Below the pieces are notes generated by a model that ran no database searches, was not told the DNA's origin, and was given only the letters and a program-made list of their open reading frames with translations. Below are positions 14,288 to 36,056 of a DNA stretch of 60,600 nucleotides, piece after piece (position 1 is the stretch's first letter; every line of letters starts with the position of its first letter). Origin of the DNA: Porphyromonas sp. HMSC065F10. GTDB lineage: Bacteria; Bacteroidota; Bacteroidia; Bacteroidales; Porphyromonadaceae. The translations under genes were made by a program, and so were the position numbers. Location: contig NZ_KV793774.1 of the NCBI RefSeq assembly GCF_001808555.1, positions 1 to 60,600 of the forward strand, written 5' to 3'.

Positions 14288-14318
14288 TTGGCGAGGGGGG
14301 GTTTTTAGTGTACCTTTG
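14288..14318 (+). promoter_or_regulatory. Promoter of the B12-riboswitch operon
   Basis: TTG (14288-14290), a 20-bp spacer and TACCTTTG (14311-14318) match the Bacteroides promoter. Transcription would start about 7 nt later, directly at the 5' edge of the riboswitch P1 stem (14325). Confidence 0.82.
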
Positions 14319-14324
14319 TCGTGA

Positions 14325-14517
14325 GCTATGGTGCGATGCGCTCTCAGCCTGAGGCGCGCATCCCATCACAAGAGGGAAGTCCGGTGCGAGTCCGGCACAG
14401 TGCCCGCTACTGTATTCCTCCATTAGGCTGCTTGCCATTCTTTATTACCACTGTCGACCGAGTCGATGGGAAGGTACGCAAGCAAGACCGGAGGTGAGTC
14501 AGGAGACCTGCCATGGC
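14325..14517 (+). promoter_or_regulatory. Cobalamin riboswitch
   Basis: P1 pairs GCTATGG (14325-14331) with CCATGGC (14511-14517). The core has the diagnostic AGAGGGAA, CCGGTGCGAGTCCGG and CCCGCTACTGTA blocks, a variable arm ending GGGAAGGTACGCAAGCAAGAC, and a full B12 box AGTCAGGAGACCTGCC ending at 14513. It precedes the exported chelatase gene by about 60 nt. Binding of adenosyl- or methylcobalamin should reduce expression of the operon. Confidence 0.96.
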
Positions 14518-14534
14518 TGTAAGATAATTTTTCG

Positions 14535-14568
14535 GATCCCGCTCGGGGGCAAGTGGGTCGGATGTTTT
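14535..14568 (+). promoter_or_regulatory. Possible expression-platform hairpin of the riboswitch
   Basis: GATCCCGCT (14535-14543) can pair with AGTGGGTC (14552-14559) with one bulge and one G-U, followed 4 nt later by TTTTT (14565-14569). It could act as a weak terminator or occlude the start codon at 14580. This is inferred from base pairing only. Confidence 0.35.
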
Positions 14569-14579
14569 TCATACACGTT

Positions 14580-15536
14580 ATGAGTAAGACATACCGTCTT
14601 ATCCTCTTTGGTGTACTCTGTATGCTATTCTCTAATGTAGTTGTTAGGGGTGAGGAGAAGATATTTGTGGAGAGTCCGCTCTTTGACTCCCTCAGAGAGG
14701 GAGAGAGAGGGGCGATACTGATGGTTCACTTTGGCACCACACACGATGACACCCGTGTGCGGACGCTTGACGCACTCAATCACGCAGTCGGAGCCGCTTT
14801 CCCCGGCATAGAGCTATGCGAGGCCTACTCCTCGCGGATCGTCTGCAAGCGGCTTCGTGACCGAGGGATCGATAAGCTCTCGCCTATGGAGGCGATGGAT
14901 AAGCTCCGGGCGGAGGGGGTGACCCATCTGCTGATCGTCCCGTCTCAGGTGATCTATGGGCTGGAGATGAAAGCCTTAGAGCAGGAGGTGGAGCAGCGGC
15001 GGGGCGACTTCCGGGAGATCCGCCTGACGACGCCACTCCTCTTCTACGAGAAGGACTACCGAGAGCTGATCGATCGGGTGTTGGTACCATTGGCGAAGGA
15101 TAGGGATACCGCTTACCTCTTGGTGGGGCACGGCACCTACGACAGCTCCACAGCGCAGTATGCGATGCTGGACCACTTCCTGATGGATCGAGGACTCTCG
15201 CAGATCATTGTCGGTTGCATTGAGGGCTACCCCTACTACGATCAGGCGCTCAGGCGTCTCCGTGCCACCGGACTCCGGAGGGTCTGCCTTATGCCACTGA
15301 TGATGGTGGCGGGCGAGCATGCCAAGCACGACATCTCCGACGAGTGGGCCACCGCCCTGCGTGACGAGGGCTATGAGGTGACCGTGGATGCCCGAGGGCT
15401 GGGAGAGCTGCCAGAGGTGCAGGAGCTGGTGGTGGAGCGGGCACGCTTCTTTGCTCACTATCGCCGCCTCCTGATCGGGGAGAAGAAAAAGATCTATGAG
15501 AAAACCGGTGTCAAGCTGAGTGCTGAGGATGAGTAG
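14580..15536 (+). CDS. cbiK: Exported CbiK-family sirohydrochlorin cobaltochelatase, riboswitch controlled
   Basis: A 318-residue class II chelatase of the CbiK family, which inserts Co2+ into sirohydrochlorin. Metal and catalytic residues are seen as His184 (VGHGT), Glu215 (CIEGYP) and His248 (AGEHAKHD). An N-terminal signal peptide (MSKTYRLILFGVLCML, cleavage near VVRG-EE, no lipobox Cys) predicts a periplasmic enzyme, like the CbiKP of Desulfovibrio and unlike the cytoplasmic Salmonella CbiK. The ATG at 14580 was chosen because it begins the signal peptide; an in-frame ATG at 14553 lies in the riboswitch expression platform. It is first gene of an operon with a TonB receptor, whose start overlaps its stop. 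Whether the metal is cobalt, iron or nickel in vivo cannot be read from the sequence. Confidence 0.9.
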   Translation: MSKTYRLILFGVLCMLFSNVVVRGEEKIFVESPLFDSLREGERGAILMVHFGTTHDDTRVRTLDALNHAVGAAFPGIELCEAYSSRIVCKRLRDRGIDKLSPMEAMDKLRAEGVTHLLIVPSQVIYGLEMKALEQEVEQRRGDFREIRLTTPLLFYEKDYRELIDRVLVPLAKDRDTAYLLVGHGTYDSSTAQYAMLDHFLMDRGLSQIIVGCIEGYPYYDQALRRLRATGLRRVCLMPLMMVAGEHAKHDISDEWATALRDEGYEVTVDARGLGELPEVQELVVERARFFAHYRRLLIGEKKKIYEKTGVKLSAEDE

Positions 15537-17901
15537 GCCAATGCGATGGGCGATCGGTCTCCTGCTGCTCCTCTGCTCCCTCGCTGCTGAGGCGACGGAG
15601 GTGCTTCGGGGACGTGTGACAGACACGGAGGGGAGGCCGATGCCGGGTGTCACCATCAGGGTACGACCTCTGCAGGAGAGCAAGGTCGTCGTGGCGATGG
15701 TGACCAATAAGGAGGGAAGGTACAGCTTTTCTCTTGCCCCCGGCGACTATCGGGTGACTGCCGGACTGATGGGCTACAGGGAGGAGACGAGGTCGGTGTC
15801 CCTCCCGATGAGAGAGACGGTAGACTTTGTCCTCAAGGAGGATCCAAAGCTGCTCGGCGAGGTGGTGGTGCTCGCTCCCTCGCACGAGCGCGCCTTACAG
15901 CATCAGGCGCTCTCCGCCATGAGTCTCGACGTCAGCTCCGTGATCTCCTCCCTCAGCAGCCTCAGCGACTTGGTGGGGCAGTCCTCCGGGGTCAATGTCC
16001 GTGGTCAGGGAGGGCTGGGCTCAGGCGTGGAGCTGTCGATCAATGGTCTCGGTGGTCAGGCGATCCGCTACTTCATCGACGGGGTCCCGCTCTCCTCCCG
16101 CGGGAGTGGTCTTAGCCTCGAGACGCTGCCGGCCAATATCGTTGACCGAATAGAGATCTACAAGGGCGTGGTCCCCCCGGAGCTGGGGATGGATGCGCTC
16201 GGGGGGGCGGTGAATATCATCACCAGGAAGAGCCGGGCGAGCTTCTTGGATGCCTCCCTGAGATTTGGCTCCTTCGGCACCATCGGTGCAGATCTGCACG
16301 GACAATATCGCCATGCAGCGAGCGGGCTTACGCTTCGCCCCACGCTGAGCTGTCTCTCCAGTCGGAATAACTATACGATGAAGGGGGTGTCGGTCTGGGA
16401 TGAGGAGGCGTACGACTTCGTCCGGAGGGACCTCCCCCGCTTCCACGATGGGTACCGCACCCTCACCGCCGGGGTGCAGCTCGGGGTGACTCAGGTGCGG
16501 TGGGCCGATGAGGCACTCCTCGGGGTGCAGTACACCGGGAGTGACAAGGAGATCCAGACCGGGTTTATGCAGACCCTCGTGATAGGCGAGGCGACCAGGC
16601 GACGGTCCGACCTGAGCCTCACAGGCAGGTATGCCAAGAAGGATCTGCTGACCCCGGGACTCTCGGCTCAGATCGATGCCGCTGTCGCGAGAGATCACAT
16701 GCTGCTCGCTGACACCACCTACAGGAAGTATTCGTGGGACGGCACCTCCGTAGAGACCAATTACAGTGAGGTGACCCGCCGGGGGAAGGCACTCCGTCAC
16801 ACGCTCCGTCCCGGTCTCTCGGCGCGAGTCAATCTCTCCTATGACCTGAGGAAATGGGGGAAGCTCAACTTCAATTACCAGCTCTCTCTTGTCGAGAACC
16901 ATCGCTACGACGACTACGACACCTCTTTTGACGAAACGAAGGACCGGATGGCACGGCACATTCTCGGCCTCTCCTACGGCGGCTACCTCCTCAACGGCAG
17001 GCTCCATGCGCTCACTTTCGTCAAGGACTACCTCTACACCGTCTCCATAGGTCAGTCTGACCTCGAGTGGCTCACCGGCTCGACCGACGTGCCCTCTCAC
17101 TTTACGAAGAATAACATCGGCTATGGTCTCGGGCTGCGGTATGCCCCGCTGGAGGCGCTGTCGGTAAAGGGCTCCTTTGAGTACGCCACGCAGCTCCCGT
17201 CTGCCCGCGAGCTGATGGGTAATGGGATCACCATTTATCCCAATTTCAAGCTCCGCCCCGAGAGAGCATACAACCTCAACCTTGTGCTCTATGGCCAGAC
17301 CGCCCCGGCGCAGAGCCATTTCCTCAATTACGAGGCGACGCTCTTCTACCGCGATGTGCACGACTTCATCCACCGGGTGGTCCATAGCGATGTGGAGAGC
17401 CAGTATGAGAATATCGGCACCTCCCGGATCGTCGGGCTGGAGGGGGAGCTGAGGTACACCTACGACTCCCTCCTGGACATCACGCTCAATGGCACCTACA
17501 CCGATGAGCGGGACCGGACAAGGCAGGATCGCTACGGCAAGACCAATGCCACCTACGGCTACCGGATCCCCAATCGCCCCTGGCTCTACGGCAATCTGAT
17601 CACCGGACTGACCATGAGGGAGCCCTTTGGGATCAATATGAGCAAGATCCGGCTCAATCTCTCCCTCGGGTACATCAAGTGGTTTTACCTCACCTGGGCA
17701 GCCTTTGGCTCCCGTGAGTCTAAGGCGATCATCCCCAGCCAGTACAATCTCTCCGGAGGGGTCACGTGGTCCTTCCGCCACAATAGATACTCCATCTCGC
17801 TGCAGGGCGACAACCTCCTGGATCGTCCGCTCTACGACAACTATATGCTGCAGAAGCCGGGGCGCTCCGTCTACTGCAAGCTCCGTCTATTCCTCAATTA
17901 A
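15529..17901 (+). CDS. TonB-dependent receptor of the riboswitch operon (XusA-like position)
   Basis: A 790-residue outer-membrane receptor. Signal peptide, then a carboxypeptidase-regulatory-like domain (about 22-105; LRGRVTDTEGRPMPGVT), a plug with VNVRGQGGLGSG and YFIDGVPLSSRGSG, EIYKGVVPPELG and ALGGAVNIITRKS, then the beta barrel ending in an aromatic/hydrophobic residue context (LRLFLN). The start was taken as ATG 15529, which overlaps the chelatase stop; a GTG at 15520 is also possible. From the B12 riboswitch and the gene neighbours, the substrate is probably a corrinoid, tetrapyrrole or metal-chelate complex. The XusABC comparison would favour a metal complex. Confidence 0.92.
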   Translation: MSRPMRWAIGLLLLLCSLAAEATEVLRGRVTDTEGRPMPGVTIRVRPLQESKVVVAMVTNKEGRYSFSLAPGDYRVTAGLMGYREETRSVSLPMRETVDFVLKEDPKLLGEVVVLAPSHERALQHQALSAMSLDVSSVISSLSSLSDLVGQSSGVNVRGQGGLGSGVELSINGLGGQAIRYFIDGVPLSSRGSGLSLETLPANIVDRIEIYKGVVPPELGMDALGGAVNIITRKSRASFLDASLRFGSFGTIGADLHGQYRHAASGLTLRPTLSCLSSRNNYTMKGVSVWDEEAYDFVRRDLPRFHDGYRTLTAGVQLGVTQVRWADEALLGVQYTGSDKEIQTGFMQTLVIGEATRRRSDLSLTGRYAKKDLLTPGLSAQIDAAVARDHMLLADTTYRKYSWDGTSVETNYSEVTRRGKALRHTLRPGLSARVNLSYDLRKWGKLNFNYQLSLVENHRYDDYDTSFDETKDRMARHILGLSYGGYLLNGRLHALTFVKDYLYTVSIGQSDLEWLTGSTDVPSHFTKNNIGYGLGLRYAPLEALSVKGSFEYATQLPSARELMGNGITIYPNFKLRPERAYNLNLVLYGQTAPAQSHFLNYEATLFYRDVHDFIHRVVHSDVESQYENIGTSRIVGLEGELRYTYDSLLDITLNGTYTDERDRTRQDRYGKTNATYGYRIPNRPWLYGNLITGLTMREPFGINMSKIRLNLSLGYIKWFYLTWAAFGSRESKAIIPSQYNLSGGVTWSFRHNRYSISLQGDNLLDRPLYDNYMLQKPGRSVYCKLRLFLN

Positions 17902-17911
17902 TCACGACATC

Positions 17912-19207
17912 ATGAAGAAAAACTTCGCAACACTCCTTATCTCCTCACTCCTGACCCTCGGTCTCCTCTCCTCCTGCGGGGAGGACACCCCTGATCCTAC
18001 GCCTACGCCTGTAGAGGCGGAGGGCTTCGACCTCTGGATCCCGGTCAAGGGAGCCACCGGCAAGACTCAGAAGGAGTATGACCAAAATATCATCGTCCGT
18101 GCCAAGGATCTCACGAAGGGGACGATCTCCATCACCGGGAAAGGCGCCGATACGGGTGGTACGTCACTCACCCCACACATCATCTATAGGGACGGCTATT
18201 ACTACGGTGTATCGAGGGAGGGCAACTTCGGGAAGTTTGAGGTCGGTGCCACGGTCCGGACGATCAAGGAGTTTCCACTGCCGATGATCAAGGATCGGCA
18301 GTTCTCCCACGCCTGGTTCGATCGGAAGACGGTCGTGCTGGTCGGCTCCACCGGTAAGCAAAAGGAGGTCTCCTGGGCGAGGATCGATACGCAGGAGATG
18401 AAGCTCCTCGACTCCGGCACACTGGCCCTGAAGGCTCCGGCTGTGGATGAGATTTTCTGTGCCAGTGGTCTCCTCGGCTATCGCCGGTCGGATAATACAC
18501 TCATCTTCCCCCACATCTACATCTCCAAGAAGCGCAGTGACCGAGCAAAGATGCTCCGCGGAGAGATCTACGTCGCCTTCATCGACGCGGCGACGATGCA
18601 GGTGAAGTCGGTCGACACCGATAAGCGGGCGGACTGGCTCGGATCTATGTCCTTTGGGGACAATAGGACCTGCAACACCTTTACCGACAAGGCGGGAAAC
18701 TTCTACTTCGTGGCCGCCAAGATCCTCAAGGAGACGACGAGACCAAGTACCACAGCACAGCGGAGCCTTATCCTCCGCGTCAATAGCGGTGCTATGGAGA
18801 CAGACAAGTCCTACGACGCCTACGATCAGCCTCGGGGCAAGATCATCGATCTTACTCCGGTCAGCGACGATGAGGTGATGCTCTACGTCCAGGATCCCAA
18901 GCAGGCTACGCCCGGCAATCCCATCTGGGACTCGGCAAAGAATAGGTACGTCTTCTTCTGGCAGATCCTGAACCTCCGCACCCACAAGGTACGCCGCATC
19001 GAGGGCGTACCCCTCTCTGTCGGCAACTTCAGCCACTTCGCCGCACCCTCGGGAGGCAAGGTCTTCCTCGGTGCCAATGTGGCGAGCGGCAATAGCTGCA
19101 TCTACATCTACGACCTCAAGAGTGGCAAGGTGTCCAAGGGCGCTGAGCTGGAGGCCGGCTTTGAGATCGAGCGTATAGTCCCGGTCTATCGTAAATCCAT
19201 TAAGTAA
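17912..19207 (+). CDS. DUF4374 lipoprotein 1 (XusB-like)
   Basis: A 431-residue lipoprotein: MKKNFATLLISSLLTLGLLSSC, then a Pro/Thr linker (DTPDPTPTP) and a beta-propeller-like DUF4374 domain. Shared family landmarks are FDLWIPV, KGADTGGTSLT, YYYGVSREGNFGKF, ASGLLGYRRSDNTLIF and YVQDPKQATP. The best-known member, Bacteroides thetaiotaomicron XusB, is a surface lipoprotein that binds siderophores and works with a TonB receptor (XusA) and a PepSY protein (XusC). The same order is seen here. The start at 17912 is set by the lipoprotein signal; the open frame continues upstream inside the receptor gene. Surface ligand capture is inferred. Confidence 0.88.
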   Translation: MKKNFATLLISSLLTLGLLSSCGEDTPDPTPTPVEAEGFDLWIPVKGATGKTQKEYDQNIIVRAKDLTKGTISITGKGADTGGTSLTPHIIYRDGYYYGVSREGNFGKFEVGATVRTIKEFPLPMIKDRQFSHAWFDRKTVVLVGSTGKQKEVSWARIDTQEMKLLDSGTLALKAPAVDEIFCASGLLGYRRSDNTLIFPHIYISKKRSDRAKMLRGEIYVAFIDAATMQVKSVDTDKRADWLGSMSFGDNRTCNTFTDKAGNFYFVAAKILKETTRPSTTAQRSLILRVNSGAMETDKSYDAYDQPRGKIIDLTPVSDDEVMLYVQDPKQATPGNPIWDSAKNRYVFFWQILNLRTHKVRRIEGVPLSVGNFSHFAAPSGGKVFLGANVASGNSCIYIYDLKSGKVSKGAELEAGFEIERIVPVYRKSIK

Positions 19208-19221
19208 CTCACAATATCGTT

Positions 19222-20523
19222 ATGAAACTCAAGAATATACTCATCACCCTCATCGTCGCTCTTGCGACTCTCTCCCTCTCCTCCTGCGAGGAGTCAGGGA
19301 AGGATACTCCCAACCCCGCCGAGGAGACCGGATCGATCGACCTCTGGATCCCCCTCAATGATCTCAGTGGCTCCATGAAGGGCCAGGATGCCTACGTCAT
19401 CCTGAAGGCGGACGACCTCTCCAAGGGGACCCTCAGCGTGGAGGGCAAGGGTGCCGACATCAGCGGCACATCCCTCACGTCCAATGTGGTCTACCGTAAC
19501 GGCTACTACTATAGTGTCTCGCGAGCAGGCAACTTCGGGAAGTTTAGGATCACCGGCACCGCCGCCGAGATGATCAAGGAGATCCCTACGCCTCAGGTAC
19601 TCGACCGTCGCTTCGCTCACGCCTGGATCAACGACAGCCACATCGTGCTGATGGGGTCGGCCGGCGATGATAAGCGGGCGGTCAATTGGGTGCTCATCAA
19701 TACCGACGAGATGCGGGTGGAGAAGGAGGGACAGCTTGAGCTGGAGGCTCCGCAGGAGAATGAGCAATTCAACTCCAGTGGCCTCCTCGGCTACCGCAAG
19801 TCGGATAACACCCTCATCTACGTCTATGTCTATATGCCCCTGAGCAAGAAGTCCAAGCTCCTCCGGGAGCGTCGCAACGAGTACTATGTGGCATTCATCG
19901 ACGCATCTACGATGAAGGTCAAGAAGGTCGAGAGCGATAGCCGCGCCGGCTTTATCGGCTCCACCTCCTATGGCGACACGCAGACCCGCCACACCTTCAC
20001 CGATGCGGAGGGCAACTTCTACTACATCGCCTGCGACATCCTGATGGAGGATGGCGTCAAGCCCGGCTCCTCATCCTCGACCCGTCAGGCAAGTAAGCTC
20101 TTCCGTGTCAAGAGTGGCGAGACCGCCATTGACAAGAGCTACGAGGGCTATGGTCAGGAGCGCGGTAAGATCGTGGACATGGCTCTGCTCAATGACAATG
20201 AGCTCCTCCTCTACGTCCAGGATCCGAAGCAGGCCACGCCCGACAATCCTACCTGGAACTCAAAGACCAACCCCTATGTCTTCTTCTATCAGGTGCTCAA
20301 CTTCCGCACCCACACGGTGAAGCGTCTGACGGACATCCCGCTCTGCAGAGGATCCTTTGCTCAGGGAGCTGACGTGAGAGACGGCAAGGCCTATATCGGT
20401 GCCAATGTGAATGATGACCCCAGTGCCCGCTTCTACGTCTACGACATCAAGAGTGGTAAGGTGACGAAGGGAGCCGACCTCGCCTCCGGCTACGAGATCA
20501 GCCGGGTCATGTCGGTGAAGTAA
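19222..20523 (+). CDS. DUF4374 lipoprotein 2 (XusB-like), tandem paralog
   Basis: A 433-residue paralog of the preceding gene, starting 14 bp after it. Signal peptide MKLKNILITLIVALATLSLSSC. The same landmarks recur along the full length: IDLWIPL, KGADISGTSLT, YYYSVSRAGNFGKF, SSGLLGYRKSDNTLIY and YVQDPKQATP. The two copies differ most in the charged loops (for example SKKSKLLRERRNEYY against SKKRSDRAKMLRGE), which may reflect different ligands. Probably a tandem duplication kept because each copy recognises a different complex, or because they form a heteromeric surface cap on the receptor; both are inference. Confidence 0.88.
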   Translation: MKLKNILITLIVALATLSLSSCEESGKDTPNPAEETGSIDLWIPLNDLSGSMKGQDAYVILKADDLSKGTLSVEGKGADISGTSLTSNVVYRNGYYYSVSRAGNFGKFRITGTAAEMIKEIPTPQVLDRRFAHAWINDSHIVLMGSAGDDKRAVNWVLINTDEMRVEKEGQLELEAPQENEQFNSSGLLGYRKSDNTLIYVYVYMPLSKKSKLLRERRNEYYVAFIDASTMKVKKVESDSRAGFIGSTSYGDTQTRHTFTDAEGNFYYIACDILMEDGVKPGSSSSTRQASKLFRVKSGETAIDKSYEGYGQERGKIVDMALLNDNELLLYVQDPKQATPDNPTWNSKTNPYVFFYQVLNFRTHTVKRLTDIPLCRGSFAQGADVRDGKAYIGANVNDDPSARFYVYDIKSGKVTKGADLASGYEISRVMSVK

Positions 20524-20532
20524 TCCCCCGCA

Positions 20533-21975
20533 ATGAAGCACTGGAAGCAACTGCATCGGATCCTCGGGACGATCCTCGCGCCGCTCTTTGTCCTCTGGCT
20601 CATCTCCGGGTCGGTGATGATCTTCAGCAGCTATCCCCGGCTGGGGGATGCGGCTGACAGGGTCGCCGACACCATCCCGGAGCTGCTGCCACCCTTAGAC
20701 AGCGTGAGGAGTCGCCTGCCGGAGGGGGAGCGCTGTACGGCGCTCGCTCTCGGCACCACCTATGGCGTCCCCACCTTTACCATCGAGACCGACTCGGGGA
20801 CGAGGCTGACGCTGAGAGCCGACAGTACGCTCGCCCCGGTGGATCCCAAGGCGATGCCCGAGGAGTGGTGCCGAAGCTATGCGGGTCGCTTCAGCAGCTA
20901 CCCGATAGCGCACATCGACACGCTCCGGAGCATCGACACCTGGACCGCCTATGAGCGGAATAAGAAGGAACTGCCGATCTACCGCTTCGTCTTCGATGAC
21001 CCGGAGGGGACCTGGCTCTACCTCTCGGGAAAGAGTGGGAGGGCGCTCCAGTGCTGCACCAAGCGAGAGCGGATCGTCTCCTCGCTGGGGACCGTCCCCC
21101 ATATGTTTTACTACCCCGGGCTGCGGAGCAATAGATCGCTCTGGGTCTGGGTGGTCAGCCTCCTCGGTGGACTGGGCGGGGTGATGTGCCTCAGCGGACT
21201 GGTGGTGGGGATCCATATGCTGATCCGCCACTACAGGCGCCGGCACCGTCTCGGCAGTCCATACCGTGGGACCTTCCGCTGGCACCACATCGCCGGTTGC
21301 CTCTTCGGTCTCTCCCTGATGCTCTTCGCCCTCAGTGGAGCCTCTTCGCTCATTGACCTCTCGGACTTCCCGACACCGAGGCACGACAAGAGTCTCGCCA
21401 AGCGGTCGCGGGCGGAGGATCCGGTTGACCTCTCCCTCTTCGCCACCGACTATCGTAAGCTCGCTGCACGGACCGGGGTCACGGGGATTGCCTGGCGTCA
21501 GTACGGCACCAAGCCCTACTATGAGGTGACCTACGGAGAGAGGAGTGAGACCCTCGACGGGAGTGACCCGAGCCTGGCACCGCTGTGGCTCACGGAGAGT
21601 GATCTGCGGAGCAAGCTGGAGCCGGTCTTTGGCAGTCCGATGAGGATCGAGCTGATCGATGAGTATGACAATTACTACGCCTACAATCGGGGAGACTACG
21701 AGCTGCCGATCTATCGGGTGAGTGTCGAGGACGCAGATGGGAGCCGGCTCTATGTCAGCCCCACCGGTGGCTACTCGCGCTACTTCAGTCGCAACGATCG
21801 GCTGCAGAAGTGGCTCTACCCCTTCTGCCACAACCTGAGGTCAAAGTTCTTCTCCGAGCATGGGACGATCCGCCTTGTGGCGATGCTGACGCTCGTGCTG
21901 GGCGGACTGGTGGTCTCCGTGACCGGAGTGGTGATGGGGTGGCGCTACCTGAGGCGGCTGACTCGACGAAAGTAA
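20533..21975 (+). CDS. PepSY-associated membrane protein (XusC-like)
   Basis: A 480-residue inner-membrane protein of the PepSY_TM family. Four membrane spans are seen: near 10-32 (ILGTILAPLFVLWLI), about 205-235 (VWVVSLLGGLGGVMCLSG), about 253-275 (GCLFGLSLMLFALSG) and about 448-472. Two PepSY domains lie in the periplasm between them. Conserved histidines in LHRILG, VPHMFYYPG, FRWHHIAG and FCHNLRSKF are candidate heme or metal ligands. Relatives such as XusC and FoxB-like proteins are thought to reduce imported ferric-siderophore iron in the periplasm. Here it may reduce a metal centre or corrinoid. It is the last gene of the riboswitch operon. Confidence 0.88.
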   Translation: MKHWKQLHRILGTILAPLFVLWLISGSVMIFSSYPRLGDAADRVADTIPELLPPLDSVRSRLPEGERCTALALGTTYGVPTFTIETDSGTRLTLRADSTLAPVDPKAMPEEWCRSYAGRFSSYPIAHIDTLRSIDTWTAYERNKKELPIYRFVFDDPEGTWLYLSGKSGRALQCCTKRERIVSSLGTVPHMFYYPGLRSNRSLWVWVVSLLGGLGGVMCLSGLVVGIHMLIRHYRRRHRLGSPYRGTFRWHHIAGCLFGLSLMLFALSGASSLIDLSDFPTPRHDKSLAKRSRAEDPVDLSLFATDYRKLAARTGVTGIAWRQYGTKPYYEVTYGERSETLDGSDPSLAPLWLTESDLRSKLEPVFGSPMRIELIDEYDNYYAYNRGDYELPIYRVSVEDADGSRLYVSPTGGYSRYFSRNDRLQKWLYPFCHNLRSKFFSEHGTIRLVAMLTLVLGGLVVSVTGVVMGWRYLRRLTRRK

Positions 21976-22059: not shown

Positions 22060-22141
22060 CTAATACCGATATTAGATTTGTCTAATACCGGTATTAGAGA
22101 AACCTAATATCGGTATTAGACAAATCTAATATCGGTAAAAG
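22060..22141. repeat. 22-bp-period palindrome array B (4 units)
   Basis: Units start at 22060, 22082, 22104 and 22126: CTAATACCGATATTAG, CTAATACCGGTATTAG (a perfect palindrome), CTAATATCGGTATTAG and CTAATATCGGTAAAAG. Spacers are ATTTGT, AGAAAC and ACAAAT. The first and third spacers are reverse complements, so the whole array has dyad symmetry. Lies between the riboswitch operon and the corrin operon. TAGATTTG, which fits a -7 element, is created across a unit-spacer junction at 22073-22080 and again on the other strand at 22121-22128. Confidence 0.93.
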
Positions 22142-22145
22142 AATT

Positions 22146-22236
22146 AGGGGTCCACACCCTGCTGAGAGCCGGCCCTCCCGGGGCGGGTGACAGATAGACC
22201 CGGATCACGAGGTCTGCCGATCGCAGTAGATACCTG
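22146..22236 (+). promoter_or_regulatory. Structured leader of the corrin operon with TPP-riboswitch-like blocks
   Basis: GGGGT (22147-22151), GCTGAGAG (22161-22168) and ACCCGGATCAC (22198-22208) occur in the order and pairing (GGGT with ACCC) of a THI box. A P3a-like GC hairpin lies between them. The 3' part instead folds as AGGT/ACCT (22210-22213, 22232-22235) around CTGC/GCAG and lacks the canonical P4/P5 sequence. It may be a degenerate TPP element or an unrelated structured leader. No cobalamin box is present here. Confidence 0.25.
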
Positions 22237-22237
22237 A

Positions 22238-23665
22238 ATGAATGAGATAGAAGATCGTATGAAGAGAGGAAAGATATATGTCGTCGGGATCGGTCCCGGC
22301 AGTCCGGAGCAGGTGACACCTGCCGTGGAGCAGGTGCTTCGTCAGGCCGATGTAGTGGTGGGGTACAAGTACTACTTCCGCTTCGTTGAGCCGCTGCTCC
22401 ACGAGGGGGCGGAGTGCATCGATACCGGCATGCGTCAGGAGCGTGAGCGGGGAGAGCTCGCCTTTGAGCGGGCGGAGGCGGGTGCCACCGTCTGCATGAT
22501 CAGCTCCGGTGACGCAGGCATCTACGGGATGGCCCCGCTGCTCTATGAGATGCGGGATGAGCGGGGGAGTGAGGTGGAGCTGGAGACCCTCCCGGGGATC
22601 TCCTCCTTCCAGATGGCAGCGGCACTCCTCGGTGCCCCGATCGGTCACGACTTCTGCTCCGTCTCCCTCTCTGACCTGATGACCCCCTGGGCGGTGATCG
22701 AGCGGAGGATCGTGGCGGCAGCGGAGGGCGACTTCGTCACCGCCGTCTTCAATCCCCGCAGCCGGCAGAGGTACTGGCAACTGACTCGCCTCGTGGAGCT
22801 CTTTCTCCTACACCGCAAGGGGGACACCCCTGTCGGCATCGTCTATCAGGCCGGCCGACCGGAGCAGAGGGTGCAGGTCACGACACTGGATCACCTGGAC
22901 GAGGCGGAGGTGGATATGCTGACGATGATCCTGATCGGCAATAGTCAGAGCTACATCTCCGGTGACCATATCGTCACGCCGAGAGGGTACTACCGCGAGG
23001 AGGAGCAGGAGGGCTCTGTCGGTGCCAAGATCATGAGCGAGAGCTTCCACACCATCCTCCCGCTCCTCAAGCATGCCGACCGATACGATACCGGACACCT
23101 CTGGGCGCTACTCCATGCCGTCCACACGACGGCAGACTTTGAGATGGAGGAGCTGCTCCACACCGATCCTGAGGCTGTGCGGCGGATCTATGAGCGGATA
23201 AGCTCCGGCGCAGTCGACACCATCGTGACCGATGTTACGATGGTGGTCTCCGGGATAAGGAAAAAGGCCCTTGAGCGGTATGGGCTGGAGGCCAAGTGCT
23301 ACCTCCACGACCCTCGCATCGCGGAGATGACGGCGGGCGGTAAGCTCACCCGCACGCAGGCGGGGATCCGTCTGGCGGTGAAGGATCATCCCCGGGCGCT
23401 CTTCGCCTTTGGCAACGCCCCCACGGCGCTGATGGAGCTCGCCGACCTGATCCATCAGGGGAAGGCTGAGCCGGCAGGCATCATCGCCGCACCGGTGGGC
23501 TTTGTCCACGTCTGTGAGTCTAAGCATATGATCAAGCCCTTCCGGGAGATCCCCAAGCTGATCATCGAGGGGCGCAAGGGCGGGAGCAACCTCGCTGCCA
23601 CGCTCTGCAATGCGATCCTGAGCTATGACGATGCGGCGGCGATACGCCCCGGCAGAGACGTATGA
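22238..23665 (+). CDS. cbiHC: CbiH-CbiC fusion: cobalt-factor III (C17) methyltransferase and precorrin-8X methylmutase
   Basis: A 475-residue two-domain corrin enzyme. Residues about 8-245 are a CobJ/CbiH-type SAM methyltransferase (YVVGIGPGSPEQ, MISSGDAGIYGM, LPGISSFQMAAALLG, VFNPRS) that methylates C17 and drives ring contraction. Residues about 265-470 are CbiC/CobH precorrin-8X methylmutase, with the catalytic His in LLHAVHTTADFEM, and DVTMVVSGI and GNAPTALMEL. The start was left at ATG 22238; ATG 22259 (MKRGKIYV) is a good alternative that begins right at the methyltransferase strand. It is the first gene of the corrin operon, and its stop overlaps the next start by 4 bp. Confidence 0.93.
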   Translation: MNEIEDRMKRGKIYVVGIGPGSPEQVTPAVEQVLRQADVVVGYKYYFRFVEPLLHEGAECIDTGMRQERERGELAFERAEAGATVCMISSGDAGIYGMAPLLYEMRDERGSEVELETLPGISSFQMAAALLGAPIGHDFCSVSLSDLMTPWAVIERRIVAAAEGDFVTAVFNPRSRQRYWQLTRLVELFLLHRKGDTPVGIVYQAGRPEQRVQVTTLDHLDEAEVDMLTMILIGNSQSYISGDHIVTPRGYYREEEQEGSVGAKIMSESFHTILPLLKHADRYDTGHLWALLHAVHTTADFEMEELLHTDPEAVRRIYERISSGAVDTIVTDVTMVVSGIRKKALERYGLEAKCYLHDPRIAEMTAGGKLTRTQAGIRLAVKDHPRALFAFGNAPTALMELADLIHQGKAEPAGIIAAPVGFVHVCESKHMIKPFREIPKLIIEGRKGGSNLAATLCNAILSYDDAAAIRPGRDV

Positions 23666-24846
23666 AGATCTTCCTCATCGGTATCAGCGACAGTCGGGAG
23701 CAGACGCTCTCGGAGGAGGTGCGGGAGGTGATCCGCTCGCACCGGCACTTCTCCGGCGGGCGACGCCACCATGAGATTATGCGCCCCTTCCTCCCGGCGG
23801 AGCACGACTGGATCGACATCATCCCTCCGATAGATGATCAGATCCGCAGCTATGGCAGGTATGAGGATATGGTGGTGGTGGCCTCCTGTGACCCGATATT
23901 CAATGGCATCGGTCAGCGGATCATGGAGTTGCACCCCGAGGCGGAGATCACTCTCTTCCCCCACTTCCACTCCCTCCAGATGCTGGCTCATGCAGCGCTG
24001 CTTCCCTATCAGGATATGCATGTGGTCTCGCTGACCGGTCGCCCCTGGAGGGCGCTTGACGAGGCTCTGATCTGCGGGGAGCGGATGATCGGCATCCTGA
24101 CCGACCTGAGGCACCACACGCCTCGCACGATAGCGGAGCGGATGATCGCCTATGGCTATGACAATTACGTCGCATACGTCGGCGAGCATCTCGGCAATCG
24201 GGCGGAGCAGAGGGTGACGCGGCTGTCGATAGAGGAGATGATGGAGAGGGACTTCGGCTACCCCAATAACCTGATCCTCCTCCGCACGAGGACTCCGGAG
24301 CGTCCCTTTGGGATCCCAGACGAGGCCTTTGTCCCGCTGGAGGGACGCCCCCGGATGATCACCAAGTCACCGATACGGCTGCAGAGCCTGTCGCTCCTCG
24401 GGCTGCATCAGGCGCAGACGCTTTGGGATGTGGGCTCCTGCACCGGCTCTGTCTCGATAGAGGCTAAGCTGCAGTTTCCCCACCTCTCTGTGGTCGCCTT
24501 TGAGATTCGCCCGGAGGGCGGGGCGCTCCTGGAGACCAATGCCCGGAGGCTCCATGCCCCAGGGATCGACTTCGTCCCGGGAGACTTCCTGGAGGCTGAC
24601 CTCTCGGCCCTCCCGACCCCGGATGCGGTCTTTATCGGAGGTCACGGCGGACGACTCCCGGAGATGATCCGGCGGATCTATCCGCTGCTGTCTGCGGGCG
24701 GGCGGATCGTCTTCAATTCTGTCAGTGACGAGAGCCGACAGCTCTTCCTCAGCAGCCTTGCCGATGTCGGCACCGGGCTGTCGGAGGAGACGCTAATGGC
24801 GGTCGACCACTTCAATCCCATCCATGTGATGCAAGCAACGAAATGA
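23662..24846 (+). CDS. cbiET: CbiE-CbiT fusion (CobL-type): cobalt-precorrin-7/-6B C5 and C15 methyltransferase/decarboxylase
   Basis: A 394-residue fusion. The N-terminal CbiE domain (about 1-200) begins MKIFLIGISD and has VVVASCDPIFNGIG and YVGEHLGN. The C-terminal CbiT domain (about 210-394) is a Rossmann methyltransferase with the SAM loop LWDVGSCTGSVSIEA, and PDAVFIGGHGG. Together they methylate C5 and C15 and decarboxylate the C12 acetate side chain. ATGA overlaps on both sides show translational coupling with cbiHC and the cbiG-cbiF fusion. Confidence 0.93.
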   Translation: MKIFLIGISDSREQTLSEEVREVIRSHRHFSGGRRHHEIMRPFLPAEHDWIDIIPPIDDQIRSYGRYEDMVVVASCDPIFNGIGQRIMELHPEAEITLFPHFHSLQMLAHAALLPYQDMHVVSLTGRPWRALDEALICGERMIGILTDLRHHTPRTIAERMIAYGYDNYVAYVGEHLGNRAEQRVTRLSIEEMMERDFGYPNNLILLRTRTPERPFGIPDEAFVPLEGRPRMITKSPIRLQSLSLLGLHQAQTLWDVGSCTGSVSIEAKLQFPHLSVVAFEIRPEGGALLETNARRLHAPGIDFVPGDFLEADLSALPTPDAVFIGGHGGRLPEMIRRIYPLLSAGGRIVFNSVSDESRQLFLSSLADVGTGLSEETLMAVDHFNPIHVMQATK

Positions 24847-26666
24847 AAGAGAAGAATGTAGCCATACTCACCATCTCCCGCGAGGGGAGAGAGATTGCCC
24901 TGCTGCTCAGGGACGAGCTCCCGGGTGTCACTCTCTACAGCACGGTGGAGGCGGAGGGTTTCCACACTATGGCGTCCCTGCGGGAGGGGTGCCGGGAGCT
25001 GATCGGAGAGTACTCTGCGCTGATTTTCTGCTCCGCCCTCGGGATCTGTGTCCGGACCGTGGGCGATCTCCTGCAGGATAAGCACATCGATCCCGCCATC
25101 CTCTGCATCGACACGACGGGTCACTACGTGATCCCCGTCGCCTCGGGGCATGTCGGCGGAGCCAACGATCTCGCCCGTCGCATCGCCCATATCCTCGGTG
25201 GTGAGGCTGTCGTCACGACGCAGAGCGACCGGCGGGGACTGTGGGCTCTTGATACGCTGGGCGAGGAGCAGGGCTGGCGGACAGAGCTGCTCGGCACAAC
25301 GATGAATCATGCCATCGCCCTCTTCGTGGAGCGTCACCGGGTGGCACTTCTCATAGAGACACGCTCGGCGGGGACAGCGCTCCTTGAGCGGACGAGGCCG
25401 GAGTGGGTCACTCTTTTCCATAAGGCAGAGGAGATCCGACCCCGGGACTTTGACCTCCTGATCAACGTGGGGTGCCGGTACCACGCAGAGATAGATCTGC
25501 CGCAGCTCTGCTACCGCCCGCCCCTCCTTCATCTCGGTGTCGGGTGCCGGCGCATGGCCGACCCGACCGGGGTGACCGACCACATTCTCTCGGAGGTGAG
25601 GGTAGGGGGCTTCTCCCCTCTCTCCATAGCGGACCTCTCCAGCATAGAGCTGAAGCGTGGCGAACCGATCCTCGAGGCGCTGGCAGAGCGACTGGGGGTG
25701 CCGGTCCGCTACTACGACAGCGAGACGCTCGATGGGGTGAGCGTGCCGCATCCCTCGGAGCGGGTCGATGAGGCGACCGGCTCTGCCAGCGTCTCCGAGG
25801 CGGCTGCCCTCACCTCCTCGGGAGGGGGTGAGCTGGTGATCGAGAAGCAGAAGGGGAAGCTCAGAGAGGGGAGTGACTTTACCTTTGCCCTCGCCATAGA
25901 GCGCAAGGGAGTGATGAGAGGGCACATCGAATTTGTTGGCGCAGGACCGGGGGACCCGGACTTGATCTCTGTGCGGGGGAGGCACTTCCTTGAGACGGCA
26001 GACCTGATCCTCTACGCTGGGAGCCTCGTCCCGGTGGCTCTGACGGAGTGCGCCAAGGAGGGAGCGGTCGTCCGCAGCTCCGCAGGGATGGCACTCGGGG
26101 AGCAGATAGCCCTGATGAAGAGCTTCTACGACCGGGGGGCGCTCGTCGTGCGACTCCACACCGGTGACCCCTGCATCTATGGCGCCATCGAGGAGCAGAT
26201 GGCAATCCTCGACGAGGAGGGCATGGAGTACCACATCACACCGGGGATCTCCTCCTTCCAGGCGGCTGCGGCAGAGCTGCAGAGCGAATTCACCATCCCG
26301 GAGCGGGTGCAGACCATTATCCTGACCCGAGGCAGCGGACGCACACCGGTGCCGGAGCGGGAGCAGCTCTCCCGGCTCGCCGCCTCGCAGAGCACGATGT
26401 GCATCTACCTCAGTGCCTCGATCGCTGAGGAGGTGGAGCGGGAGCTGCTCACCCACTACCCACCGACCACCCCTGTGGCGGTCTGCTATAAGCTGACCCA
26501 CCCCGAGCAGCGGATCTACCGCGGGGAGCTCAGGGATCTCGCACGGATCGTCCGCGAGCAGGGACTCAAGCTCACCACCATGATCGTCGTCGGTGAGGCG
26601 ATAGGCAATCGCGAGGGGCTGTCTCGCCTGTACCACAAGGACTTCAAGCATCTCTTTCGCCCATGA
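24843..26666 (+). CDS. cbiGF: CbiG-CbiF fusion: cobalt-precorrin-5A hydrolase and cobalt-precorrin-4 C11 methyltransferase
   Basis: A 607-residue fusion. The N-terminal CbiG part (about 1-335) opens the lactone ring and loses C20 as acetaldehyde; it shows IFCSALGICVRT, SGHVGGANDLARRIA and NVGCRYHAEID. A low-complexity linker (about 305-355) leads to CbiF (about 358-600) with FVGAGPGDPDLISVRG, LYAGSLVP, HTGDPCIYGA, TPGISSFQAAAAEL and TRGSGRTPVPE. These are consecutive steps in the anaerobic pathway (C11 methylation, then ring opening), so fusion may channel unstable intermediates. Confidence 0.93.
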   Translation: MKEKNVAILTISREGREIALLLRDELPGVTLYSTVEAEGFHTMASLREGCRELIGEYSALIFCSALGICVRTVGDLLQDKHIDPAILCIDTTGHYVIPVASGHVGGANDLARRIAHILGGEAVVTTQSDRRGLWALDTLGEEQGWRTELLGTTMNHAIALFVERHRVALLIETRSAGTALLERTRPEWVTLFHKAEEIRPRDFDLLINVGCRYHAEIDLPQLCYRPPLLHLGVGCRRMADPTGVTDHILSEVRVGGFSPLSIADLSSIELKRGEPILEALAERLGVPVRYYDSETLDGVSVPHPSERVDEATGSASVSEAAALTSSGGGELVIEKQKGKLREGSDFTFALAIERKGVMRGHIEFVGAGPGDPDLISVRGRHFLETADLILYAGSLVPVALTECAKEGAVVRSSAGMALGEQIALMKSFYDRGALVVRLHTGDPCIYGAIEEQMAILDEEGMEYHITPGISSFQAAAAELQSEFTIPERVQTIILTRGSGRTPVPEREQLSRLAASQSTMCIYLSASIAEEVERELLTHYPPTTPVAVCYKLTHPEQRIYRGELRDLARIVREQGLKLTTMIVVGEAIGNREGLSRLYHKDFKHLFRP

Positions 26667-27355
26667 CACCGATCACGATCGTCTCCCTCGGCAGCGGGGA
26701 GCCGGAGGATATCACCCTCCGTGCATACCGGGCTCTGCAGGATGTGGAGCGCATCTACGCCATAGGTGAGGCGGCAGTAGAGATCATCCGGGCGCTTCCC
26801 TCAGGAGCGGTGCTGGAGAAGAAGGTGACCATACTCTCCGTCCCTATGCAGAGTGACCGGAGAGCAGCCGCCTCAGCCTACGAGGCACTCGCCGGTCAGC
26901 TCGAGGCGGACTGTCTCGCCGACATCTCCACCGCTCTCGTCACCATCGGCGACGCGGGGACCTACTCCAGTGCGGGCTATGTCTGCCGGCTCCTCAGGGA
27001 GAGGGATATGCCCCACTTCATCCTCCCCGGCATCCCCTACTATATGACGCTGCCGGCGTGCCTCAGCAGACCGCTGGTCCTGGGGGAACAGTCGCTCCTC
27101 GTGCTCAGTCGGGTTGAGAGTGCGGAGCAGCTCCGGGAGGCGATCGACAGGGACCGGGTGGTGGTCGTGATGAAGCTTTCCCGCTCGGAGGAGGCGGTGC
27201 GGGACTTCCTCCGGACCGATCCTCCGGTCTCTATCCTCTATGGTGAGTACATCGGCGACGAGGAGCGGGAGCTGGTCACCGACAGCCTGAGATCCCTCCC
27301 CGAGACCCCTTTCCCCTACTTCTCCCTCCTTATCATAAAGCCAAGCACGAGATGA
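26663..27355 (+). CDS. cbiL: CbiL: cobalt-factor II (precorrin-2) C20 methyltransferase
   Basis: A 230-residue SAM-dependent tetrapyrrole methyltransferase of the CobI/CbiL group. Seen: VSLGSGEPEDITLRA at the N-terminus, TIGDAGTYSSAGYV, LPGIPYYMTLPACL and VVMKLSRSEEAVRDFL. It places the C20 methyl group that marks the first committed corrin step. It overlaps the cbiG-cbiF fusion by 4 bp and the binding-protein gene by 4 bp. Confidence 0.92.
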   Translation: MTPITIVSLGSGEPEDITLRAYRALQDVERIYAIGEAAVEIIRALPSGAVLEKKVTILSVPMQSDRRAAASAYEALAGQLEADCLADISTALVTIGDAGTYSSAGYVCRLLRERDMPHFILPGIPYYMTLPACLSRPLVLGEQSLLVLSRVESAEQLREAIDRDRVVVVMKLSRSEEAVRDFLRTDPPVSILYGEYIGDEERELVTDSLRSLPETPFPYFSLLIIKPSTR

Positions 27356-28680
27356 AAATGCAGACCTATCTGAGACCTTTGCATAATACCCCATCTGCGG
27401 CGTCACATTCGAGATTCGGGCTTGGTCATGTGCGTAAGCACACTCCCTTCGCCCTCACTCTCAGTCCCTTGCATCTGGAGTATTCTGCAAAGTCCCTGCC
27501 GAAAAAGCGGTGCTTTTTCGGCGAAAGACCATTTTGCAAAGGTCTTTATCTATATGGTGCTCTCGCCCTTCTCCTCCTTCTCCTCTCCTCCTGTGGGGGA
27601 AAGGAGACGCAGGGCAGGGAGGAGACGATGATCGCCGGCGACTCGCTCATCCGCTATGCCGAGGGGCTGAGGATCACCCGCAGTGAGGGCGTGACACTGG
27701 TCGACATCTCCGACCCGACGAAGCCGGAGAGCGAAGTCTATCGCTACGCCTTAGTCCCCCGAGGGACCGATGCCGGTGGGGAGATCCCCGAGGGCTACAC
27801 GCCGATAGAGGTGCCGGTGAGCCGGGTGATCGTGATGACGACGCTGCAGCTCTCCAATTTCATCAAGCTCGATGCCGTCGACCGGGTCGTCGGTATGCCG
27901 AGTACCCACTTCCTCTTCAATCAGAAGATGCTCGACCGCCTGGCGGAGGGCAAGGCGCGGCGGATCGGGATAGAGGGAAACTTTGACTCCGAGCTGATCA
28001 TGGCACTGGAGCCGGACCTGATCCTCGTCTCCCCCTTCAAGCGCGGAGGGTATGATGCCCTCAAGGAGCTCGACATCCCGCTCCTCACCTTCCTCGGGTA
28101 CAAGGAGACCTCCCCGCTCGGTCAGGCGGAGTGGATCAAGCTCACCGCCCTCCTCCTCGGGAAGGAGGATCAGGCGGAGCAGACCTTTGACCAGATAGAG
28201 CAGCGCTATCACCAGCTCCAGAGTCTCATCACGCCCGACCTGCCCCGTCCGAAGATCCTCAGCGGTGAGCTGCACGGGGGCAACTGGTATGTCGTTGGCG
28301 GGGAGAGCTACCTCGCGCACCTCTTCCGCGATGCCGGTGGGGACTATTTCCTGAGGGACAATAAGGAGTCCGGGGGTTTTTACCTCGACTTTGAGACCGT
28401 CTACAGCCAGGCGGCGGATGCGGACTTCTGGCGGATCACCAATAACTACAAGGGCGACTACTCCTACGATGTGCTCGCGCGCACAGACGCTCGGTACAGA
28501 GACTTCCGGGCGTACAAGGAGCGGAAAGTGCTCTACTGCAATCTCTCGGAGCGCCCCTTCTACGAGGGTTCACCGGTGGAGCCGGAGGTGGTCCTTGCCG
28601 ACCTGATCCACGCCTTCCACCCCGAGCTGCTCCCCGACCATACGCCCGTCTACTACGACCTCCTGACGAGGGAGAAGTGA
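27352..28680 (+). CDS. BtuF/IhtC-like ABC substrate-binding lipoprotein with a MITE inserted in its signal peptide
   Basis: A 442-residue periplasmic-binding protein of the corrinoid/heme/siderophore class (PRVIVM-type domain: VSRVIVMTTLQLSNFIKLD, EPDLILVSPF, KILSGELHGG, WYVVGGESYLAHLF). It feeds the FecCD permease and ATPase that follow. The N-terminus is odd: MKMQTYL is separated from LYGALALLLLLLSSCGG by 60 extra residues encoded by a 175-bp element plus a 5-bp target duplication. Removing it restores a perfect lipoprotein signal, MKMQTYLYGALALLLL then SSC. The insertion is in frame, so the ORF stays open. Export may now depend on an internal start (GTG or TTG inside the insertion) or fail. 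The original start at 27352 is supported by the ATGA overlap with cbiL. Confidence 0.88.
   Translation: MKMQTYLRPLHNTPSAASHSRFGLGHVRKHTPFALTLSPLHLEYSAKSLPKKRCFFGERPFCKGLYLYGALALLLLLLSSCGGKETQGREETMIAGDSLIRYAEGLRITRSEGVTLVDISDPTKPESEVYRYALVPRGTDAGGEIPEGYTPIEVPVSRVIVMTTLQLSNFIKLDAVDRVVGMPSTHFLFNQKMLDRLAEGKARRIGIEGNFDSELIMALEPDLILVSPFKRGGYDALKELDIPLLTFLGYKETSPLGQAEWIKLTALLLGKEDQAEQTFDQIEQRYHQLQSLITPDLPRPKILSGELHGGNWYVVGGESYLAHLFRDAGGDYFLRDNKESGGFYLDFETVYSQAADADFWRITNNYKGDYSYDVLARTDARYRDFRAYKERKVLYCNLSERPFYEGSPVEPEVVLADLIHAFHPELLPDHTPVYYDLLTREK
27372..27546. mobile_element. 175-bp MITE-like element inside a signal peptide
   Basis: Terminal inverted repeats are GAGACCTTTGCA (27372-27383) and TGCAAAGGTCTT (27535-27546). 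The element is flanked by 5-bp direct repeats TATCT (27367-27371, 27547-27551). Internally, GACCTTTGCATAATACCCC at the left pairs imperfectly with GGAGTATTCTGCAAAGTC (27477-27494), and GCCGAAAAAGC is followed by its exact complement. It encodes no transposase. The ends resemble the GAGAC-TTTGCA termini of insertion sequences and MITEs in Porphyromonas. Confidence 0.85.
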
Positions 28681-28686
28681 TATACC

Positions 28687-29727
28687 ATGTCCCGCTCCCG
28701 TAACGCCATAGCCTTCGGCATCATTGCGATCCTGATCGTCGTCGCCTTCGTCCTCAATCTCTCTCTCGGGACGATTGCGATACCCTTCCGCGACGTGGTG
28801 GATATCCTCCTCGGGCGCGACACCGGAGGGAGTGAGATCTGGCGTAACATCGTCTGGAAGAGCCGCTACCCGCAGACCATCACCGCCCTCGTCGCCGGCG
28901 CGGGGCTCTCCATCAGCGGACTGCTCATGCAGACGGTCTTCCGAAATCCCCTCGCCGGCCCCTCGGAGCTCGGCATCAGCTCCGGTGCCAGCCTCGGCGT
29001 GGCGACCCTCGTGCTCCTCTCGGGGAGCATCAGCCAGAGGGCGCTGATCCGCATGGGCTTCGTCGGGGAGATGGCGGTCTCCGTGGCGGCACTCCTCGGG
29101 GCACTGGCGGTGATGGGGATCATCATGATCATGTCGGAGAAGGTGAAGGGGAATGTCGTCCTCCTCATCATGGGTGTGATGATCGGCTACATTGCCAATG
29201 CGATCATCGGTGTGCTGAAGTTCTTTAGCAACGATGAGGATGTCCGCAGCTATGTCGTCTGGGGACTGGGAAGCTTCTCCAAGGTGAGCGGCGACCGCGT
29301 CACCACCTTCGTCCTCCTGATGCTGGTGCTGATCCCCCTCTCCTTTCCCCTCATCAAGACGCTTAACCTCCTGCTCCTCGGAGAGAACTATGCCCGCAGC
29401 CTTGGGCTCAATTACAAGCGCGCCCGCCACCGGGTGATCTTCTGCTCCTGTCTCCTCACCGCCATCGTCACCGCCTACTGCGGCCCGATCGTCTTCATCG
29501 GTCTGGCGGTGCCGCACCTCTGCCGCACCATTTTCGCCACCTCCAACCATCGGATCCTGATGCCGGCGGTGACGCTCGTCGGAGCGTTGCTCGCCCTGAT
29601 CTGCAGCGTCATCGCGCGGATGCCGGGCTTCGAGGGGGCGCTGCCGATCAATTCGGTCACCGCCCTCATCGGTGCCCCGATCGTCATCTGGGTCCTCTTC
29701 AGTCGCCGTCGGGGCGAGAGACTATGA
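28687..29727 (+). CDS. FecCD/BtuC-family ABC permease
   Basis: A 346-residue inner-membrane permease with about ten membrane spans. Family landmarks: LGTIAIPFRDV, YPQTITALVAGAGLSISGLLMQTVFRNPLAGPSELGIS in part (GLLMQTVFRNPLAGP), GLAVPHLCR and the C-terminal GAPIVIWVLFSRR. It forms the channel for corrinoid, heme or siderophore uptake with the neighbouring ATPase and binding protein. Start 6 bp after the binding-protein stop; the stop overlaps the ATPase start by 4 bp. Confidence 0.93.
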   Translation: MSRSRNAIAFGIIAILIVVAFVLNLSLGTIAIPFRDVVDILLGRDTGGSEIWRNIVWKSRYPQTITALVAGAGLSISGLLMQTVFRNPLAGPSELGISSGASLGVATLVLLSGSISQRALIRMGFVGEMAVSVAALLGALAVMGIIMIMSEKVKGNVVLLIMGVMIGYIANAIIGVLKFFSNDEDVRSYVVWGLGSFSKVSGDRVTTFVLLMLVLIPLSFPLIKTLNLLLLGENYARSLGLNYKRARHRVIFCSCLLTAIVTAYCGPIVFIGLAVPHLCRTIFATSNHRILMPAVTLVGALLALICSVIARMPGFEGALPINSVTALIGAPIVIWVLFSRRRGERL

Positions 29728-33866: not shown

Positions 33867-33879
33867 CACCTTAGTCTAT

Positions 33880-36012: not shown

Positions 36013-36056
36013 TCGCAACTATAGTTTTTTACTCACTTTTTAATTATCACTTTACT

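Follow-up and report, generated by a model that had tools for sequence, protein, structure and literature searches.

A stretch of 60,600 nucleotides from Porphyromonas sp. HMSC065F10 (contig NZ_KV793774.1, positions 1 to 60,600; hereafter the window) carries, behind a complete cobalamin riboswitch, genes for an exported homologue of the cobaltochelatase CbiK (CbiKp1), a TonB-dependent receptor, two lipoproteins and a PepSY membrane protein, the last three kinds resembling the Xus import system of Bacteroides. We consider the chances slightly better than even that this unit salvages, under repression by B12, the tetrapyrrole from which corrin synthesis starts, and that cobalt is loaded outside the cytoplasm. 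An earlier reading of the DNA from its letters alone (the original prediction) had proposed cobalt chelates, corrinoid precursors or other tetrapyrroles as cargo. A tetrapyrrole or corrinoid precursor is retained here, most likely at the sirohydrochlorin level and destined for the adjacent corrin pathway, in preference to just any cobalt chelate.

A riboswitch-controlled unit of CbiK and Xus-like genes

The unit consists of the following features:
14312..14529, plus strand: complete cobalamin riboswitch aptamer (RF00174; Rfam 85.9 bits, E 8.5e-20)
14580..15536, plus strand: CbiKp1, exported CbiK of the class II cobaltochelatase family (PF06180, 207 bits)
about 15529..17901, plus strand: TonB-dependent receptor, XusA homologue (match to 9GBC, XusA; plug domain)
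17912..19207, plus strand: XusB-like surface lipoprotein 1, beta-propeller (AlphaFold2 model; lipobox LLSSC in the translation)
19222..20523, plus strand: XusB-like surface lipoprotein 2 (alignment with lipoprotein 1; lipobox LSLSSC in the translation)
20533..21975, plus strand: PepSY_TM inner-membrane protein, XusC-like (PF03929, 45.5 bits; four likely transmembrane helices)

These parts had all been named in the original prediction, and each of them withstood closer analysis. The riboswitch match is full length (model positions 1-189, against a gathering score of 31.5), with an exact B12 box match at 14496; folding of the leader (z -1.2) told nothing about the expression platform. The receptor gene overlaps the CbiKp1 stop codon, and the best solved relative of its product is XusA of B. 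thetaiotaomicron (9GBC, identified as XusA from PMC13142918; E 8.7e-89 over residues 56-787). Both lipoproteins, which are 52% identical, missed the Pfam DUF4374 cut-off of 25 bits, one with 19.5 bits and the other without a match. However, the AlphaFold2 model of lipoprotein 1 (predicted local distance difference test score, pLDDT, 83) matched B. fragilis XusB with Z 31.9 and a root-mean-square deviation of 3.1 over 351 residues, and a family profile recovered XusB by sequence (E 1e-12), so that the DUF4374/XusB label stands despite the missed cut-off.

The unit is followed directly, on the same strand, by a corrin operon (22238-37088) with the following features:
22238..27355, plus strand: corrin-ring genes cbiHC, cbiET, cbiGF and a TP_methylase gene read as cbiL (NCBIfam; PF00590)
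27352..30737, plus strand: btuF, btuC and btuD-like ATP-binding cassette (ABC) importer (PF01497; homologues of P. gingivalis IhtC, D, E)
30730..33866, plus strand: cbiJD and cbiA (TIGR00312, 359.8 bits; GATase_3/CbiA domains)
33880..36012, plus strand: second TonB receptor, BtuB/IhtA-like (PF00593, PF07715; synteny with CbiK2 in relatives)
36054..37088, plus strand: CbiK2, second exported CbiK, a lipoprotein and IhtB/FetB homologue (PF06180, 156.8 bits; lipobox LSGC)

The TP_methylase is read as CbiL, a probable assignment, from its family and the operon context. A single riboswitch was detected for the whole stretch from the CbiKp1 unit to CbiK2, the last gene, and with the corrin operon directly behind the PepSY gene this places the CbiKp1-XusA/XusB-PepSY unit at the head of a locus for B12 synthesis. 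The original prediction had described the five-gene unit correctly and had left this downstream operon with its CbiK2 unreported, which changes the interpretation.

No HemB, HemC, CobA or cytosolic CbiK or CbiX found in the genome

CbiL acts on cobalt-sirohydrochlorin. In the genome, which is 99.8% complete, no HemB, HemC or CobA was found over cut-off, and CbiD and other corrin-ring genes are present. The CbiL substrate should therefore not be made de novo, and ring synthesis must begin from imported material. With early tetrapyrrole genes absent and the corrin ring pathway present, the genome resembles the tetrapyrrole precursor salvagers of Shelton et al. 2018 (PMC6461909); however, the salvagers tested there import 5-aminolevulinate, whereas entry at the sirohydrochlorin level with extracytoplasmic cobalt insertion, by named genes, is proposed here. 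A gap in early tetrapyrrole synthesis is known for P. gingivalis from Roper et al. 2000, as cited in PMC13227078 and discussed in PMC6461909, and for several porphyromonads from PMC4700951.

The N-terminus of CbiKp1, MSKTYRLILFGVLCMLFSNVVVRG, is signal-peptide-like, and those of its orthologues have diverged yet are still signal-peptide-like (e.g., MRKLLLGTMAVLISMLCHQQVSAQ), which is the pattern expected of conserved export, the classes being those of our own hydrophobicity rule and not of a dedicated predictor. The metal site of CbiKp1 (His184, Glu215 and His247; H-E-H) is conserved. Its closest solved structure is Salmonella CbiK (1QGO, E 1e-33), which belongs to the same family and has the same H-E-H site; CbiKp1 differs in having a signal peptide and in scoring 157.8 bits against the NCBIfam equivalog NF047852, under the 400-bit cut-off, and so is not filed as a proven CbiK equivalog. 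It also matched 2XVX (E 5.7e-26), which we take to be the periplasmic CbiK of Desulfovibrio vulgaris, a class II chelatase working outside the cytoplasm; unlike the window genome, D. vulgaris presumably possesses a cytosolic CbiK as well and synthesises the precursor itself. The H-E-H triad was found in 71 of the 75 signal-peptide CbiK forms, so that catalysis by the exported enzyme would fit better than mere binding. CbiK2 matched the FetB structure 9B86 (E 6.9e-47), and its metal site is H-D-H, with Asp replacing Glu, as in 25/44 lipoprotein forms and nine cytosolic forms.

A CbiK profile search of the genome gave two matches only, CbiKp1 and CbiK2, both in the window and both of the exported type, and the only CbiX match was CbiKp1 itself. 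This bears on a scheme of cobalt acquisition, in which external cobalt chelates would be imported and CbiK would strip the cobalt for internal use. B12 control and membership in a cobaltochelatase family would suit such a scheme, which we nevertheless regard as highly improbable, since no cytosolic chelatase was found in the genome to re-insert the cobalt and the missing tetrapyrrole would be left unexplained.

A possible route for the precursor

Under the salvage reading, the XusB-like lipoproteins would capture an external tetrapyrrole at the sirohydrochlorin level (sirohydrochlorin, siroheme or precorrin-2) and hand it over to the XusA-like receptor. In the periplasm, exported CbiK would insert cobalt to give cobalt-sirohydrochlorin; siroheme as cargo would need prior removal of its iron by the exported CbiK. 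The PepSY protein may supply electrons or assist membrane passage, and the BtuFCD-like importer, perhaps together with PepSY, would carry the cobalt complex inward. CbiL and the downstream Cbi enzymes would then build the corrin, and sufficient B12 would shut the operon via the riboswitch. We infer the roles of XusB, PepSY and BtuFCD from knowledge of their families; the substrate, the use of cobalt in vivo and the order of events are inferences too.

If so, genes can be named for a question open since 2000, namely how P. gingivalis and its relatives have a functional corrin pathway without synthesis of the starting tetrapyrrole, and the reading touches on how P. gingivalis synthesises B12, which has been called an "enigma". 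Among the Bacteroidales of gut and mouth, many could rely on neighbours for sirohydrochlorin or siroheme. It also suggests that biosynthetic metal insertion can relocate outside the cytoplasm when the substrate is external.

Chelatase location follows HemB status across genomes

We then compared HemB status with chelatase location in 48 genomes with corrin genes (27 of the family, out of its 32 high-quality genomes, and 21 spread over the order), calling each CbiK cytosolic or exported from its N-terminus; note that one CbiK gene of G019 is truncated by a contig edge, with its start unseen. None of the 25 HemB-negative genomes had a cytosolic CbiK or separate CbiX, and 24 of them had an exported CbiK. 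A cytosolic chelatase was present in 20 of the 23 HemB-positive genomes (14 with cytosolic CbiK and six with a short CbiX). On the CbiD tree, HemB changes at least six times. A Fisher value of 1e-10 for the association ignores shared ancestry, which inflates the counts, and we do not read it as a probability.

The link between location and HemB has a bearing on the nature of the cargo. Finished corrinoids or cobinamide could be taken up instead, as in BtuBG, with CbiK serving merely as a periplasmic binder of corrinoids or tetrapyrroles. The riboswitch and the nearby btuFCD-like importer are in keeping with this, and the model of lipoprotein 1 also resembles BtuG (Z 20.7). However, that match is much weaker than the one to B. 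fragilis XusB (Z 20.7 vs. 31.9), the metal-binding triad of CbiK is kept, and the tracking of HemB by chelatase location would be left unexplained. We accordingly hold corrinoid cargo to be quite unlikely.

Several observations weigh against the salvage reading. Exported CbiK also occurs in 9/23 HemB-positive genomes, and in three of these (G055, G263 and G293), which have exported forms only, the search for a cytosolic class II chelatase gave none. In G292 (L066:9254-12220), exported CbiK adjoins a TonB receptor and no CbiD match was found, so that its product would serve another use. One HemB-negative corrin genome, G114 (L065), is without a CbiK match although btuFCD is present, and there the cobalt insertion step is left unexplained. 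When HemB and location were compared in phylogenetic pairs, the test was not significant and was underpowered (3 supported pairs, 2.2 concordant on average and 0 discordant). The nearest solved XusB, that of B. fragilis, is a ferrichrome binder. The main competing view comes from a later review, which reports FetB-dependent Mn-protoporphyrin (PMC13402209). Since HemB-positive genomes can hold exported CbiK, export alone does not mark a genome as auxotrophic; what can be said more firmly is that a cytosolic chelatase is missing from the auxotrophs.

The CbiK tree, a quick one with support from the Shimodaira-Hasegawa-like approximate likelihood ratio test (SH-aLRT) only and a midpoint root, has two large clades, one IhtB-like (mostly lipoproteins) and one with CbiKp1 (mostly signal peptides). 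The cytosolic CbiK of HemB-positive species falls, for one Porphyromonas genus, inside the IhtB-like clade and, for the other genus, inside the CbiKp1 clade. CbiK location thus switched two or more times, each time together with HemB status; given the quick tree and its midpoint root, the direction of these switches is read by parsimony. In several HemB-positive Porphyromonas, cobA is no more than 10 kb away from the cytosolic CbiK gene, and in P. canoris (G025) it stands immediately upstream of cbiHC, the position held in the window by CbiKp1-receptor-XusB-XusB-PepSY. Such nesting of cytosolic forms in exported clades, near cobA or before cbiHC, argues that CbiKp1 is a biosynthetic chelatase with a changed address.

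The unit recurs in other Bacteroidales

The original prediction had suggested a search of relatives for the gene set behind cobalamin riboswitches, and such a search proved positive. A scan of named genomes gave 80 CbiK loci, and neighbours were counted in 52 of them, which together contain 55 plus-strand genes of the CbiKp1 type. A XusA-like/XusB pair was found near 23 of these genes (23/23 exported), and in 16/23 the leading gene of the unit has a B12 box; this count is lax, as a receptor/lipoprotein pair was accepted at any distance from CbiK up to 9 kb and two loci give two CbiK genes each. The hosts include Porphyromonas bennonis, P. uenonis, P. levii and Proteiniphilum, as well as Bacteroides cellulosilyticus, B. 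muris, B. heparinolyticus and bins of Prevotellaceae and Muribaculaceae. The possibility that the gene set is unique to the window genome was thus rejected. In relatives, both the riboswitch and the adjacency of the unit to cbiHC are conserved. Loci of Dysgonomonas and Butyricimonas have exported CbiK with other TonB receptors and PepSY proteins, followed by cbiHC; the front of the unit, with its XusB part, thus varies between loci. In a fusobacterium, a Cetobacterium bin (L112:9071-10846), exported and cytosolic CbiK stand in tandem behind a B12 box.

This distribution also speaks to the idea that a Xus system for ordinary xenosiderophore uptake adjoins B12 genes by chance. The receptor and lipoproteins are indeed XusA/XusB homologues, and B. 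fragilis XusB binds ferrichrome (PMC13142918). However, the linkage with exported CbiK and B12 boxes recurs across Bacteroidales, and the classical Xus locus is iron-regulated (PMC10434189), whereas the window locus has a cobalamin riboswitch. We regard ordinary xenosiderophore uptake as very improbable. Relative to XusABC of Bacteroides, the window has the XusA-like receptor, XusB-fold lipoproteins and PepSY membrane protein in common, and differs in its cobalamin riboswitch instead of iron control, its two XusB copies, its exported CbiK and its linkage to corrin genes. The proposal that a Xus architecture has come under B12 control with the chelatase outside the cytoplasm, likewise made in the original prediction, is supported.

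Comparison with the Iht system of P. gingivalis

In P. gingivalis, which is also HemB-negative, an RF00174 match (764546-764785) lies ~200 bases upstream of ihtA in the operon ihtABCDE (L007:6953-13493). Rodionov et al. 2003 may already have noted a riboswitch before iht. The start of the P. gingivalis CbiK, MKKLILATLGLMAIAMLSCS, is the published IhtB signal peptide (PMC10913741); IhtB/FetB is thus an exported CbiK, and the Iht operon follows the same logic as the window unit. In both, a cobalamin riboswitch precedes genes for an exported CbiK homologue, a TonB receptor and a BtuFCD-like importer, and CbiK2 of the window is the IhtB homologue. The Iht-type layout is found in the window as a TonB receptor adjoining the lipoprotein CbiK (33880-37088); the btuFCD-like genes (27352-30737), with 52-61% identity to the genes behind ihtB, are in the same cluster and not adjacent to the receptor and CbiK2. 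On the other hand, Iht is without XusA, XusB and PepSY, its CbiK is a lipoprotein of another clade than CbiKp1, and it is annotated as heme/iron uptake.

Exported CbiK beside a TonB receptor is therefore already known from Iht, and Xus is known as well. The claim in the original prediction that no characterised system has such a composition was too strong, as Iht/FetB is partly characterised and combines exported CbiK, a TonB receptor and a cobalamin riboswitch. In the literature searched, we did not find the joint CbiK-Xus unit, its B12 control, its spread or its tie to missing tetrapyrrole synthesis.

A heme-directed function has been proposed for IhtB/FetB, in which exported CbiK would remove heme iron or swap the metal of a metalloporphyrin, supplying iron or protoporphyrin. 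PMC10913741 calls IhtB a putative heme-binding lipoprotein and Iht a heme/iron uptake system that is hardly characterised; these bacteria are without HemB, and the FetB-dependent Mn-protoporphyrin mentioned above points the same way. However, the window locus is under B12 control and adjoins cbi genes, a riboswitch precedes iht too, and ihtB is reportedly not Fur-regulated and showed no significant change with iron or heme (PMC10913741). Furthermore, Bacteroidota have a distinct heme dechelatase, HmuS (PMC12583661). Heme or metalloporphyrin remodelling is hence unlikely in our estimation, and under the salvage reading the P. gingivalis "heme" system Iht/FetB may itself serve B12 synthesis.

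Possibly exported CobA fusions and the gap before cbiHC

In P. levii (L070:7368-8624, plus strand) and a sister species (L071:7893-9122, minus strand), CobA has an extra C-terminal part and a signal-peptide-like start. These two fusions end in DAVSGAT and DAVTGAS, respectively, resembling a flavin-attachment motif. Both genomes are HemB- and HemC-negative and also carry exported CbiK enzymes. To our knowledge, an exported S-adenosylmethionine-dependent methyltransferase would be very unusual. It is conceivable, if doubtful, that several early B12 steps are extracytoplasmic, such that scavenged tetrapyrroles would be methylated and cobalt-loaded in the periplasm and only cobalt-sirohydrochlorin would be imported.

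The gap between the PepSY gene and cbiHC contains one further feature:
22060..22147, no strand: four 22-nt copies of the palindrome CTAATACCGATATTAG (repeat search)

No terminator-like site was predicted in a terminator scan of this gap; in consensus promoter and terminator scans, site numbers were not above those of shuffled sequence. The corresponding gap of P. bennonis (L019) has fewer copies of the CTAATACCGATATTAG palindrome.

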